DNA from: Planktomarina temperata RCA23
GTDB lineage: Bacteria > Pseudomonadota > Alphaproteobacteria > Rhodobacterales > Rhodobacteraceae
NCBI RefSeq assembly: GCF_000738435.1
Contig: NZ_CP003984.1
Coordinates: 186,001-250,000 of the forward strand
Length of the DNA: 64,000 bases
Direction of reading: 5' to 3'
The notes below the pieces were generated by a model. The model saw nothing but the letters and a program-made list of their open reading frames with translations. It made no database searches and was not told where the DNA came from. The position numbers and the translations under genes are program-made. This document shows positions 17,799 to 42,868 of this stretch, one piece after another. The stretch's first letter is position 1. Every line of letters starts with the position of its first letter.

Positions 17799-18602
17799 GT
17801 GGCAAATGTTTCTCAATTCGGCGTCAGACGCTTTGGACGGGTCAATTGGCTGGGCCTTTGGACGCTCATTCGCCGCGAAAATATGCGCTATTTGACGATT
17901 TGGCAGCAGACAATTTTTGCACCATTGATCACGGCAGGTTTGTTTCTATTGGTTTTTTCCATTGCTATCGGACCGGGTCGCTCGGATGTCATGGGGTTTG
18001 ATTATGTCAGCTTTCTGGCACCGGGTTTGTTGATGATGACGGTGATACAAAATTCTTTTGCCAATACCTCCTCTTCCATGCTTTCGGCGAAAGTCATGGG
18101 CTCCATTGTCGACACGCTGATGCCGCCCCTGTCGCCTTTGGAGATGACCGTGGGATTCTTGGCGGGCGGAATTGGTCGCGGATTGGTGATTGGTGCGGTG
18201 CTCTGTCTGTCGATGGGGCTGAGCCTCGGCATTTGGGTTGCCCACCCGCTTTGGACATTGGCTTTTTTGGTTTTGGGCGGGATGTTCATGGGCGCGCTGG
18301 GGCTTTTGGGCAGCATCTATGCCTATAAGTTTGACCAGATGGCCGCGATTTCAAATTTTGTGATCACACCCTTGGCCTTCTTGTCGGGGACCTTCTATTC
18401 GATCCAAGCTTTGCCCTCAATGATGCAGCCACTGATCCATGCGAACCCGATGTTCTATATCATCGACGGCGGCCGTTACAGTGTTTTGGGGGTTTCCGAT
18501 GGCAGCCCATGGATGGCTTTGGCCGTGATTTGCGGTGCCAATATCTGTGCGGTTGGTTTGGCCTGGTTTTGGTTGGCGCGGGGCTATCGGTTGAAATCTT
18601 AA
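17799..18602 (+). CDS. ABC-2 type transporter permease
   Basis: A 267-residue inner-membrane permease with six helices, of the ABC2_membrane/NodJ-like type (FLAPGLLMMTVIQNSFANTSSSMLSAKVMGSIVDTLMPPLSPLE and the C-terminal SGTFYSIQALP segment). It starts at GTG 17799 with GGAG upstream. Its partner ATPase is not adjacent on either side, so it either uses a subunit encoded elsewhere or has lost it. Substrate unknown. Confidence 0.85.
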   Translation: MANVSQFGVRRFGRVNWLGLWTLIRRENMRYLTIWQQTIFAPLITAGLFLLVFSIAIGPGRSDVMGFDYVSFLAPGLLMMTVIQNSFANTSSSMLSAKVMGSIVDTLMPPLSPLEMTVGFLAGGIGRGLVIGAVLCLSMGLSLGIWVAHPLWTLAFLVLGGMFMGALGLLGSIYAYKFDQMAAISNFVITPLAFLSGTFYSIQALPSMMQPLIHANPMFYIIDGGRYSVLGVSDGSPWMALAVICGANICAVGLAWFWLARGYRLKS

Positions 18603-18665
18603 AGGGATTTGCCGCAGCGGATATTTGGACTTTTCATGGCCGGGGGGCTTTGGTATGGTAAGGGC

Positions 18666-18710
18666 ATGAAAACGATGATTGAAATCACCTTGCGACGCCG
18701 ACGTCGCTGA
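18666..18710 (+). CDS. Arginine-rich leader peptide upstream of argD
   Basis: A 14-codon frame reads MKTMIEITLRRRRR and stops at TGA 18708-18710, about 100 bases before argD. It ends in five consecutive Arg codons (CGA CGC CGA CGT CGC), and AAGGG lies just before its ATG. The Arg-codon run itself can fold: GCGAC (18692-18696) pairs with GTCGC (18703-18707). A short Arg-rich peptide directly before arginine-biosynthesis genes is the expected layout for ribosome-mediated attenuation: scarce Arg-tRNA would stall the ribosome on the run and change the downstream RNA fold. No clear U-tract terminator is visible in 18711-18811, so the mechanism is inferred. Too short for standard gene calling. Confidence 0.7.
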   Translation: MKTMIEITLRRRRR

Positions 18711-18811
18711 TATGACCGCTGCACCGCGGCCGGCCCCTCGTGTTTCTGCGCTCCCATGCGTGTTTCTCAATTTTGGTTTTCTCACTCCCTCCTCGTTAGA
18801 AAGGCTTTCCG

Positions 18812-19990
18812 ATGATCCCTTCGATTCTGCCCACCTATAATCGCGCTCCGTTTTCGTTTGTCTCTGGCTCAGGCAGCTGGTTGACCAGCGATGACGGTCG
18901 GCGATTTTTGGATTTGGGCGCTGGGATTGCGGTCAACAGCCTGGGACATGCGCATCCGAAACTGGTGGCGGCGCTGACGGCGCAAGCGGGTCAATTGTGG
19001 CATACGTCCAATTTGTACCATATTCCCGCGCAACACAAACTCGCCGATCAGCTGGTGGATCTGACCTTTGCCGATACCGTGTTTTTTACCAACTCTGGGA
19101 CGGAGTCCTGTGAATTGGCCGTGAAAATGGCGCGCAAATATTTCTATGACAAGGGTCAGCCAGAGCGCGTGGAAATTATTGCATTTGAGGGGGCGTTTCA
19201 TGGGCGCTCCTCCGCAGGGATTGCAGCTGCTGGTGCGGAGAAGCTGACGAAAGGCTTTGGGCCCTTGCTGCCCGGTTTCGTGCAATTGCCATTTGCAGAT
19301 CACGACGCGCTGCATGCGGCAGTCAATGAAAAGACCGCCGCCATATTGATCGAGCCGATCCAGGGGGAGGGCGGTATCCGCCCTGTGCCGGATCATTGTT
19401 TGAAAGGCCTGCGCGATTTTTGTGACAGCCACGGGATCTTGCTGATTTTCGATGAGGTGCAATGCGGTGTGGGACGGACAGGGAAGTTGTTTGCCCATGA
19501 GTGGGCAGGGATTGATCCCGATATTATGATGGTGGCCAAGGGTCTTGGTGGGGGCTTCCCCATCGGGGCGGTTTTGGCGAATGAAGAGGCTGCAAGCGGA
19601 ATGGGGGCAGGGACACATGGCTCGACCTATGGTGGCAATCCCTTGGGTTGTGCGGTGGCAAGTGCTGTCTTGGATGAGGTGGCTGCTCCTGAATTTCTGG
19701 CAGAGGTGAGCCGCAAAGCTGGGGCGCTGCGCCAAGGTCTTGAAGGCCTGGTCGCGCAATATCCTGATGTGTTTGAGGGCGTGACGGGCGCGGGGTTGAT
19801 GCTGGGTCTGAAATGCAAGGCGAGCAATATGGATGTGGTCACAGCCGGATATGACTGCGAGGTGTTGACCGTCCCTGCGGCCGAAAACGTCGTGCGTGTG
19901 CTTCCGGCGTTGACTATTTCAAACGCGGAGATTGCTCAGGCGCTGGAGCGGTTGGAGACGGCGGCGCAAACGGTTCAATCTGCGCAATGA
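18812..19990 (+). CDS. argD: Acetylornithine aminotransferase
   Basis: PLP enzyme of arginine biosynthesis, converting N-acetylglutamate semialdehyde to N-acetylornithine with glutamate. Normal length, 392 residues. Seen: FTNSGTESCELAVKMARKY (PLP phosphate contacts), FEGAFHGRS, LIFDEVQCGVGRTG (PLP-ring Asp), and VAKGLGGGFPIGA with the Schiff-base Lys. The ATG at 18812 follows AAAGG. argF follows 71 bases downstream, so they probably form one operon under the Arg-rich leader. Confidence 0.96.
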   Translation: MIPSILPTYNRAPFSFVSGSGSWLTSDDGRRFLDLGAGIAVNSLGHAHPKLVAALTAQAGQLWHTSNLYHIPAQHKLADQLVDLTFADTVFFTNSGTESCELAVKMARKYFYDKGQPERVEIIAFEGAFHGRSSAGIAAAGAEKLTKGFGPLLPGFVQLPFADHDALHAAVNEKTAAILIEPIQGEGGIRPVPDHCLKGLRDFCDSHGILLIFDEVQCGVGRTGKLFAHEWAGIDPDIMMVAKGLGGGFPIGAVLANEEAASGMGAGTHGSTYGGNPLGCAVASAVLDEVAAPEFLAEVSRKAGALRQGLEGLVAQYPDVFEGVTGAGLMLGLKCKASNMDVVTAGYDCEVLTVPAAENVVRVLPALTISNAEIAQALERLETAAQTVQSAQ

Positions 19991-20061: not shown

Positions 20062-20985
20062 ATGCAGAATTTTCTCGATATTGATCAGGTTGATCCCCAA
20101 AATTTGCGTGGCATTTTGGATGAGGCCGCGCGGATCAAGACGGCGCGTGCCGGCCTGTCCAAAGGCATGTTGGATGCTGAACGGCCACTTGAGGGCAAGA
20201 TGGTGGCGTTGATTTTTGAAAAGCCATCCACGCGCACCCGCGTGAGCTTTGATCTTGGCGTGCGGCAGATGGGTGGGCAGACCATGGTTTTGTCCGGCAG
20301 CGAAATGCAGCTGGGCCATGGGGAAACCATCGCGGATACGGCGCGGGTTTTGAGCCGCTATGTGGACATGATCATGATCCGCACTTTTGAGGAGGCAACC
20401 CTGCTGGAAATGGCCGATTATGCCAGTGTTCCGGTGATCAATGGGCTGACCAACCGCAGCCATCCATGCCAAATCATGGCCGATATCTTGACGTTTGAAG
20501 AGCATCGCGGCTCTATTCGGGGCAAGCGCGTGGTCTGGACGGGTGATGGTAACAACGTTTGTGCAAGCTTCATCCATGCGGCCGGGCAATTTGGCTTTGA
20601 TTTCGTTTTTGCCGGCCCAGCGACGCTGGATCCCGAGGCGGAATTTGTTGAGAAGGCGCGGGCCAAAGGTGTGAAGATCGAGATCCAGCGGGACGTCAAC
20701 GAAGCGGTGCGCGGCGCGGATCTGTTGGTGACGGACACTTGGATCTCTATGCACGACAGCCAAACCGCACGCGAGCGGCGCCACAATCAATTGCGCCCCT
20801 ATCAGGTTGATGATGCGTTGATGGCGCAGGCCAAGCCGGATGCTCTTTTCATGCATTGCTTGCCCGCACACCGCAACGAAGAGGTCACCAGCTCTGTCAT
20901 GGATGGGCCGCATTCGGTGGTCTTCGATGAGGCTGAAAACCGGTTGCATGCGCAAAAAGCGATTATGCGCTGGTGTCTAGACTAA
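20062..20985 (+). CDS. argF: Ornithine carbamoyltransferase
   Basis: Joins carbamoyl phosphate (from CarAB; carB is at 2.4-5.7 kb) to ornithine, giving citrulline. The 307-residue product has the carbamoyl-phosphate motif [13 protein letters not shown] (residues about 50-62), the HPCQIMAD segment, DTWISMHD, and the ornithine-loop [11 protein letters not shown]. Second gene of the argD-argF unit. Confidence 0.96.
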
Positions 20986-42332: not shown

Positions 42333-42470
42333 ATGAACAACAAACCGACCTCAACGACCGTAATAGAACCGACTGAAATTGCGGTAACCCAAACCATAAT
42401 CCGGGCTCAAAACGGGGATGTGATTGTGGCAGACGAACCGGTTTGCGGATGCGATTGTCAGACCGAGTGA
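42333..42470 (+). CDS. Small Cys-ended peptide of 45 residues, function unknown
   Basis: An ATG at 42333 opens a frame for 45 codons that starts MNNKPTSTTV and ends with a cysteine cluster CGCDCQTE. Its stop overlaps a GTG of the next frame (GTGA at 42467-42470), suggesting translational coupling. A short peptide with a Cys-rich end before a partner gene is a layout seen in modified-peptide (RiPP) loci, but no known family is recognised and the upstream ribosome site is weak. The gene may be chance or remnant. Confidence 0.4.
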   Translation: MNNKPTSTTVIEPTEIAVTQTIIRAQNGDVIVADEPVCGCDCQTE

Positions 42471-42868
42471 TTGAAGACATCGCGATGCGCCTTGGAAAAT
42501 CGGGCCATGGTTTTGGGGCCATGCCGCAACGTGACGATACCAACAATTTTTTGGGAGATGTTGACCCCTCGTCGCAGGCGGAGGAACTGAGTTATTTTAT
42601 CGGTGAAAATATTGATTGCTGGGACGTTCTGCAAAGGAGAGAGTTTGCCTCTTTCATGGCAGATTTGCCAGGCCGTCAGGGCGTGCGGGGATTTTTGAAA
42701 CACCTGAAGGGTGGCGGTATTATCGCTGATACAGCGGGCCCCTTACAGACGATTTTAGCCATCGGAGGAACTCGCGCGGCCTTGGCGGAGAATGGCTACA
42801 ACGAACGGTTCAACGGCACGCGCGGCCCTCATTTCATGTTGCAATGGCGTTATACAGAGGTCTTTTGA
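42467..42868 (+). CDS. Hypothetical protein, 3' end replaced by a repeat fragment
   Basis: From the GTG at 42467 the frame encodes about 133 residues. The first 118 or so, up to AALAENGYNERFNGT, look like ordinary protein but match no family I recognise. The last residues (GPHFMLQWRYTEVF) are translated from repeat copy D at 42825-42866, so the original C-terminus has been cut off. It is coupled to the Cys-ended peptide upstream. Probably a truncated gene. Confidence 0.4.
   Translation: MIEDIAMRLGKSGHGFGAMPQRDDTNNFLGDVDPSSQAEELSYFIGENIDCWDVLQRREFASFMADLPGRQGVRGFLKHLKGGGIIADTAGPLQTILAIGGTRAALAENGYNERFNGTRGPHFMLQWRYTEVF
42825..42866 (+). repeat. TIR element copy D (right-end fragment)
   Basis: GCCCTCATTTCATGTTGCAA then TGGCGTTATACAGAGGTCTT matches the right end of copy C with a few changes. 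Only this end is present; the rest of the element is absent. Confidence 0.7.

Follow-up and report, generated by a model that had tools for sequence, protein, structure and literature searches.

A short open reading frame that closes on a run of arginine codons lies before argD across much of the Rhodobacteraceae; its presence there is real and beyond chance, and it probably specifies a cis-acting, leaderless leader peptide through which Arg-tRNA would be sensed and the expression of argD-argF controlled. The frame was recognized in a 64-kb stretch of DNA (hereafter the window), which is part of a single-contig genome of 3,288,122 bases and whose argD finds its closest matches among named records in Planktomarina and other Rhodobacteraceae. 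As the initial annotation had it, a 14-codon frame ends in five Arg codons about 100 bases before argD; its 3' end reads CGA CGC CGA CGT CGC TGA, and 101 bases separate the stop from the argD ATG. The hairpin that the same annotation placed over the Arg run is likewise borne out, being perfect over 6 bp and present in the predicted fold. The upstream neighbour is an ABC-transporter permease gene that ends at 18602, and an Rfam scan of the 64-kb window returned 0 matches at the gathering score. The features of the locus are the following:

18631-18636, forward strand: predicted P1 -35 element, TTTTCA (T at -35 in 82/89 leaders)
18654-18659, forward strand: predicted P1 -10 element, TATGGT (T or A at -12 in 87/89 leaders; TA within -14 to -9 in 50/51)
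18666-18710, forward strand: leader-peptide ORF, MKTMIEITLRRRRR followed by the stop; ATG start, 14 codons, predicted leaderless
18668-18681, forward strand: segment A, GAAAACGATGATTG, 5' arm of the predicted closing stem, including the G of the start codon
18692-18707, forward strand: Arg-codon hairpin GCGACG-CCGA-CGTCGC, self-complementary (GCGACGCCGACGTCGC)
18693-18707, forward strand: five consecutive Arg codons, CGA CGC CGA CGT CGC
18716-18729, forward strand: small hairpin CCGC-TGCACC-GCGG, a short way 3' of the leader stop
18730-18797, forward strand: pyrimidine-rich, A-poor leader stretch, a putative Rho or anti-Shine-Dalgarno region
18768-18781, forward strand: segment A', CAATTTTGGTTTTC, 3' arm of the predicted closing stem, part of which can instead pair with the argD Shine-Dalgarno sequence
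18798-18804, forward strand: argD Shine-Dalgarno sequence, AGAAAGG
18812-19990, forward strand: argD, acetylornithine aminotransferase (TIGR00707, 446.8 bits; cut-off 410.05)
20062-20985, forward strand: argF, ornithine carbamoyltransferase (TIGR00658, 380 bits; cut-off 280.85)

Conservation of the arginine frame before argD

Conservation was assessed by scanning argD upstream regions for frames that open with ATG and carry, close to the stop, a run of two or more Arg codons or, under a stricter rule, three or more. In a first sample of 80 named loci (L032-L111), the closest argD matches, the stricter rule found a frame in 65, against 0 on the reverse strand and 0.35 in shuffles, and the looser rule in 69, against 3 and 4.8, respectively. 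The held-out sample was drawn from genomes of the family, one per genus, of which 167/170 had an argD match; 80 of the 167 were taken, as roughly alternate rows of the argD match list, and the exclusion of L257, which could not be oriented, left 79. Among these held-out genera a frame with at least three Arg codons was present in 51/79, compared with 3/79 reverse complements and a mean of 0.42 (maximum 3) in dinucleotide shuffles; with at least two Arg codons the count was 69/79, compared with 7/79 on the reverse strand and 3.83 in shuffles. Poor conservation in relatives, which the initial annotation had named as a ground for abandoning its arginine leader peptide, is thus not what was found: the frame is conserved across the family with its Arg codons kept and its remaining residues free. 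Within the window itself, counting both strands, just two ATG frames have at least four consecutive Arg codons no more than six codons from the stop, namely the argD leader frame and one at 42558 inside a longer open frame. The latter (42558-42590, forward strand) reads MLTPRRRRRN, with five Arg codons, and sits within a 141-residue open frame at 42443-42868.

The two samples overlap slightly, L201 being the same as L095 over 60 bases and 4/51 held-out leaders being at least 80% identical to leaders of the first set. The set of 89 leaders used below omits L003, L004, L005, L007, L008 and L012, which duplicate the genomes of L032-L036 and L058. L006, which has no such copy, was left out of most analyses of that set and is present in those of the promoter and of pairing in the window's genus; the doubtful L027 was excluded from the first-set swap, terminator and promoter counts. 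A pattern search over 198 genomes proved too loose for use. A second frame, ATGACC..., which begins one base after the leader stop, was also rejected, as it is not kept and is only four codons long in L036.

The element is not universal within the family. In L088, L097 and L098 the preceding gene stops about 80 bases short of argD and the element is cleanly absent; it is also missing from six Jannaschia loci, and these losses indicate that it is dispensable. Nor was an Arg leader found in L013, L028 or L031, in L112 and L114-L116, four further genomes of the family, or in any of the 12 loci that represented other families of the class. The run itself can also erode, as in L035 (the same genome as L007; a close relative), where two of the five Arg codons have become Cys and Ser, and in L036, where one has become Leu.

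Codon choice within the run is strongly biased. The first Arg codon is CGA in 48/51 held-out leaders, against a CGA share of 7.3% among the Arg codons of 38 window ORFs, and the absence of bias that the initial annotation would have counted against itself is therefore not observed. CGA is decoded slowly, by an inosine anticodon. Two other readings of the conserved run are best weighed here. That the run is a DNA or RNA motif unrelated to translation, in which CGACGCCGACG reads Arg by accident, draws on its being very conserved as nucleotides, but we consider this very unlikely. When the run was located by nucleotides only (64/80 loci), in a scan blind to translation, the ATGs 15-60 bases upstream were distributed 76:28:7 over frames 0, 1 and 2, with Arg read in frame 0; moreover, Arg is kept through codon changes (AGA for CGA in L006 and L048, CGT for CGC in several others). 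That the frame makes a functional Arg-rich micropeptide, its site before argD being incidental, would agree with a conserved frame that looks translated, yet we lend it hardly any credence. Peptide length ranges from about 10 to 21 residues, the short versions typically ending in IRRA or IRRDI, and no residue beyond the start and Arg is common to all; this variability favours a leader peptide over a functional small protein, and covariation at the first codons tracks RNA pairing, as described below.

In bacteria, the control of arginine is generally ascribed to the repressor ArgR. ArgR (TIGR01529) was undetected in 21/21 genomes, comprising that of the window, 12 others of its genus, which alone represents the family in this search, and 8 from other families; the same search detected it in 9/14 control genomes, including E. 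coli and B. subtilis. With ArgR undetected in these genomes, the candidate leader peptide before argD-argF stands there instead. Frames with at least three Arg codons were found before argJ, argC, argG or carA at 0/28 loci from 7 genomes, the argC loci in this control resting on family matches below the curated cut-off, and two-Arg frames occurred at 3 of the 28 (L168, L169 and L185).

Putative promoter, predicted leaderless start and closing stem

The leader frame is preceded at close range by the putative promoter P1, arranged in the window as TTTTCA-17-TATGGT-6-ATG, although a simple sigma-70 scan of the window region listed no promoter. When leaders are aligned on the ATG, a pyrimidine occupies -1 in 81/89 of the first set and 48/51 of the held-out set. 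A Shine-Dalgarno word precedes the leader frame in only 7/89 and 2/51 leaders, compared with 74/89 and 43/51 for argD. Because the promoter keeps a fixed distance and Shine-Dalgarno words are rare, the transcript should begin at the AUG, and its start would lie at the A of the leader ATG or at a neighbouring base. The plausible ribosome site of the initial annotation does not survive this comparison: AAGGGC abuts the ATG but sits behind the -10-like TATGGT, and what was taken for a ribosome site is almost certainly the -10 box region, a reading with which the scarcity of such words among relatives agrees.

A second promoter-like motif (P2), the -35-like TTGAC, lies 40-85 bases before argD in 83/87 loci outside the window's genus and in 73/79 held-out loci, but in only 2/23 loci of the window's genus (a count that includes duplicate-genome copies). 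Given the latter figure, argD may depend on the leader transcript in that genus, where the element may be the main route to argD besides possible read-through from the permease gene. Outside it, most argD transcripts could bypass the element by way of the P2-like motif. Judged by this distribution, the element looks like a module placed ahead of an argD promoter older than itself.

The 5' end of the leader, start codon included, is predicted to pair with a segment behind the stop codon, and in the window 12/14 positions of segments A and A' are paired. In 29 Ruegeria/Leisingera-type leaders the arms of this closing stem, GATCAA/TTGATC, are nearly invariant, and the consensus fold of the same leaders comprises, besides the closing stem, one in which the Arg run pairs with the stop-codon region, together with a hairpin before P2 that includes one compensatory pair (C-G in 15, U-A in 11, U-G in 3). 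Across genera the arms change together, as in GATTAAACGC/GTGTTTAATC (L018), GGTCAAAG/CTTTGACC (L074), GATCGCA/TGCGATC (L038) and ATGAACA/TGTTCAT (L024), and, in the held-out set, GACGTGC/GCACGTC (L232) and ATGACGCAA/TTGCGTCAT (L207).

This co-change was quantified by an anchored swap test, in which 5' ends are exchanged between species and the best helix is scored; the test was devised after those pairs had been seen and was then rerun unchanged on new genomes and without near copies. With kinship between species ignored throughout, native pairs scored 13.84 against 9.89 (sd 0.70) after exchange in the first set, the native score being reached by 0/1000 permutations (49 distinct 5' ends). With kinship again ignored, the held-out genera gave 13.02 against 8.76 (sd 0.71; 0/2000, n=51), and 12.81 against 8.63 (0/2000, n=47) once near copies of first-set leaders were removed. 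The 32 distinct held-out 5' ends that do not start ATGATC scored 12.94 against 9.01, and reversal of the downstream region abolished the held-out signal (443/2000). The stem is not detected everywhere, 6/51 held-out leaders having no anchored helix of at least 5 pairs.

In the minimum-energy fold, at least 4 of bases 2-9 pair behind the stop in 47/51 leaders, and the 51 leaders are more stable than their shuffles (median z -1.99); the window region 18640-18830, taken in full, is of unremarkable stability (z -1.03). With shuffled A segments as the reference, the energy of the A:A' duplex did not stand out (median z -0.08; p<=0.05 in 6/89). RNAalifold recovered just five closing pairs and no double-sided change in 46 diverse leaders, and 20 pairs, one of them with a double-sided change, in the 29 similar ones. 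The conserved RNA structure of the element is the closing stem, which covariation demonstrates and whose function we infer. The initial annotation had proposed a search for a conserved, covarying and mutually exclusive pair of stems; a pair of the trp/his type finds no support here, but a covarying stem of another kind was found. A stretch conserved in the window's genus, ATTTTGGTTTTC (18768-18804), can pair either with the argD AGAAAGG or with the leader 5' end.

Termination signals and the proposed mechanism

In keeping with the initial annotation, no U-tract terminator was found between 18500 and 18900 of the window. A hairpin with a U-rich tail occurs near the position of the window hairpin 18716-18729 in several sister lineages, and in L036, L058, L009, L010, L011 and L033 a terminator-like hairpin begins 3-14 bases past the stop codon, such that a ribosome on the last Arg codons would cover its 5' arm. 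By count, a hairpin with a U-tract was present in 10/15 leaders of the window's genus against 5.3 (sd 2.0) in shuffles, and one with a U-rich tail in 13/73 leaders of other genera against 13.2 in shuffles (60/73 without), which is not above chance; an intrinsic terminator in the sister lineages is at most weakly indicated. In many roseobacters a C/U-rich, G-poor tail (e.g. AAATCCCACCAAATC) replaces the U-tract after the last leader hairpin and before P2.

An antiterminator of the trp type was considered and rejected. In Ruegeria, pairing is possible between the stop region (GCGUAA) and T1, the 5' arm of the hairpin that follows, but under constrained folding with a stalled ribosome it exceeded a probability of 0.5 in 0/29 Ruegeria/Leisingera-type leaders, the group that the test covered; the window leader has no such T1:T2 hairpin. 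A case for Rho based on composition was also rejected. The stretch 18712-18797 consists of 37% C, 34% T, 21% G and 8% A, and its C/G ratio of 1.74 is matched by only 1/51 window ORFs of at least 200 residues, a minus-strand frame at 20949 opposite argF. Across loci, C/G after the frame is 1.61, compared with 1.62 upstream of 21 argJ, argG and carA controls, and is thus not specific to the leader; YC dimers are somewhat commoner after the frame than in the controls (0.202 vs 0.16 per base). As a separate observation, a strong GC hairpin with a U-rich tail was seen close to argD, within the last 120 bases before it, in 9/16 loci from other Alphaproteobacteria and from family genomes without an Arg leader (L112, L114, L116, L119, L120, L122, L124, L125 and L127), against 5.2 (maximum 8) in shuffles, and this may be a different argD attenuator.

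The anatomy of the leader strongly suggests the sensing step. The RNA from P1 would begin at the AUG of the mini-ORF, and the first ribosome would trail RNA polymerase into the CGA-led Arg run. If charged Arg-tRNA were ample, this ribosome would pass the run, terminate and depart, whereupon the 5' end, including the start codon, could fold onto A' and close the leader, so that little transcript or translation would reach argD. If Arg-tRNA were short, the ribosome would stall on the run and keep the Arg/stop region and the sequence that follows open, and expression of argD-argF would presumably rise. In the window's lineage the expected output is occlusion of a Rho-dependent or local terminator rather than an antiterminator of the trp type; it may lie in the direct masking of a terminator or Rho site, or in a contest for A' between the leader 5' end and the argD Shine-Dalgarno sequence. 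A stronger version of the mechanism, which we hold to be fairly unlikely, makes the closing stem itself the switch. The start codon would be captured once A' is transcribed, and only the pioneer ribosome would read each RNA; by stalling on the CGA-led run, or by clearing it, that ribosome would set the partner of A', with the leader 5' end and the downstream argD control sequence as the alternatives. Such a one-shot attenuator, if true, would require no intrinsic terminator and no antiterminator of the trp type, and would serve arginine in bacteria without ArgR.

Two further explanations keep the RNA and give it another role. P1 might yield a stand-alone or dual-function small RNA that acts in trans, argD being served by P2 and its neighbourhood being secondary; the predicted pairing of the 5' end behind the stop in 47/51 leaders, the extra hairpin before P2 visible in many folds (uncounted), the TTGAC that separates the element from argD in 83/87 loci outside the window's genus and 73/79 held-out loci, and the trans action attributed to a leaderless attenuator RNA of S. 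meliloti in the consulted part of PMC10117765 would all fit. We nevertheless regard it as unlikely, since Arg codons before an arginine gene make sense without a trans target, and since the window's genus mostly lacks P2 and carries the element inside the presumed argD 5' UTR. For the window's lineage a translational switch can also be drawn, with A' (18768-18781) serving as an anti-Shine-Dalgarno sequence for AGAAAGG unless the leader 5' end takes it, and with leader ribosomes determining which pairing forms. The calculated energies permit the exchange (-11.6 kcal/mol for A:A' and -5.4 kcal/mol for A' with the Shine-Dalgarno sequence), and the local fold of the window does pair the Shine-Dalgarno sequence, but the switch is distinctly unlikely: that pairing is weak, the Shine-Dalgarno sequence is wholly or partly paired with the stretch upstream of it in the local minimum folds of about 7/11 leaders of the genus, as judged by eye without a shuffle control, and transcripts from P2 could not be switched in this way. 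The leader peptide acting in cis on argD-argF is the reading that we prefer.

Comparison with known leader peptides

The roseobacter-type marine group is abundant, and, if the cis-acting reading is true, arginine would join the amino acids sensed by leader peptides, and the element would allow leaderless attenuators with a covarying stem at the 5' end to be studied comparatively. In the open-access literature, supplements excluded and subscription papers mostly outside, no arginine leader peptide before argD or other genes of arginine synthesis was found described. A survey of premature terminators (PMC2965389) mentions neither arginine nor argD in its main text, and the single mention of argD in PMC3616915 concerns a different matter. 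In the portion available, a comparative paper that treats Actinobacteria (PMC1262725) lists His, Thr and Phe attenuators from other bacteria, but T-boxes for Arg. Compared with an attenuator of the trp/his type, the element has a leader ORF rich in codons for the amino acid of its operon, but an intrinsic terminator common to the family and, in the 29 leaders covered, an antiterminator were not found.

Arginine codons are known to act as sensors in two other settings. In the speF leader of Salmonella, consecutive Arg codons of orf34 sense arginine and alter the downstream RNA structure, with Rho involved, according to the accessible part of PMC6386406; that system differs in controlling ornithine decarboxylase, and its leader, about 515 nt long, has a Shine-Dalgarno sequence and encodes a conserved 34-residue peptide. 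The argD leaders do not belong to the orf34 family, as their peptides have only Arg in common with one another and are much shorter, and the downstream gene is argD. Arg codons in the rbfL leader peptide of S. aureus are described as sensing arginine limitation (PMC13009471, seen in part), but there the stalling blocks translation of a biofilm regulator, and the 8-residue peptide starts at GUG with a Shine-Dalgarno sequence in a Firmicute.

Further parallels come from cysteine. Mycobacterial leaderless sORFs with polycysteine tracts attenuate the operon downstream (Canestrari et al. 2020, as cited in the parts consulted of PMC9031893 and PMC9094748), and the earlier comparative paper reports, in its available portion, that no terminator hairpin was found conserved upstream of the cys operons of mycobacteria (PMC1262725). 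They resemble the argD leader in being short ORFs with contiguous cognate codons near the stop, leaderless there and predicted to be so here, and differ in amino acid, in belonging to the Actinobacteria and in having been shown experimentally; a closing stem goes unmentioned in the available parts of these accounts. Within the Rhodobacterales, the order to which the argD leaders also belong, uORFC-8-2 before cysS likewise places tandem cognate codons inside a stem, and ribosome-mediated attenuation has been proposed for it (PMC8632094, seen in part). It serves cysteine and cysS, however, and has a 3' U run in all cases according to that part of the account, unlike the 60/73 Arg leaders outside the window's genus that lack a hairpin with a U-rich tail.

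Sinorhizobium meliloti offers two further cases, one of them a DUF1127 gene attenuated by way of a uORF, with Rho suspected, according to the consulted part of PMC12218461. The other is trpL (rnTrpL), a leaderless leader-peptide ORF before trpE whose RNA starts at the AUG, as supported by Ribo-seq in the part consulted of PMC10117765. The argD leader resembles trpL in that both belong to Alphaproteobacteria and both place a leaderless ORF, here a predicted one, upstream of an amino-acid biosynthetic gene; trpL, however, concerns Trp and trpE and is backed by Ribo-seq and earlier experiments, whereas the element described here concerns Arg and argD and is known from its sequence.
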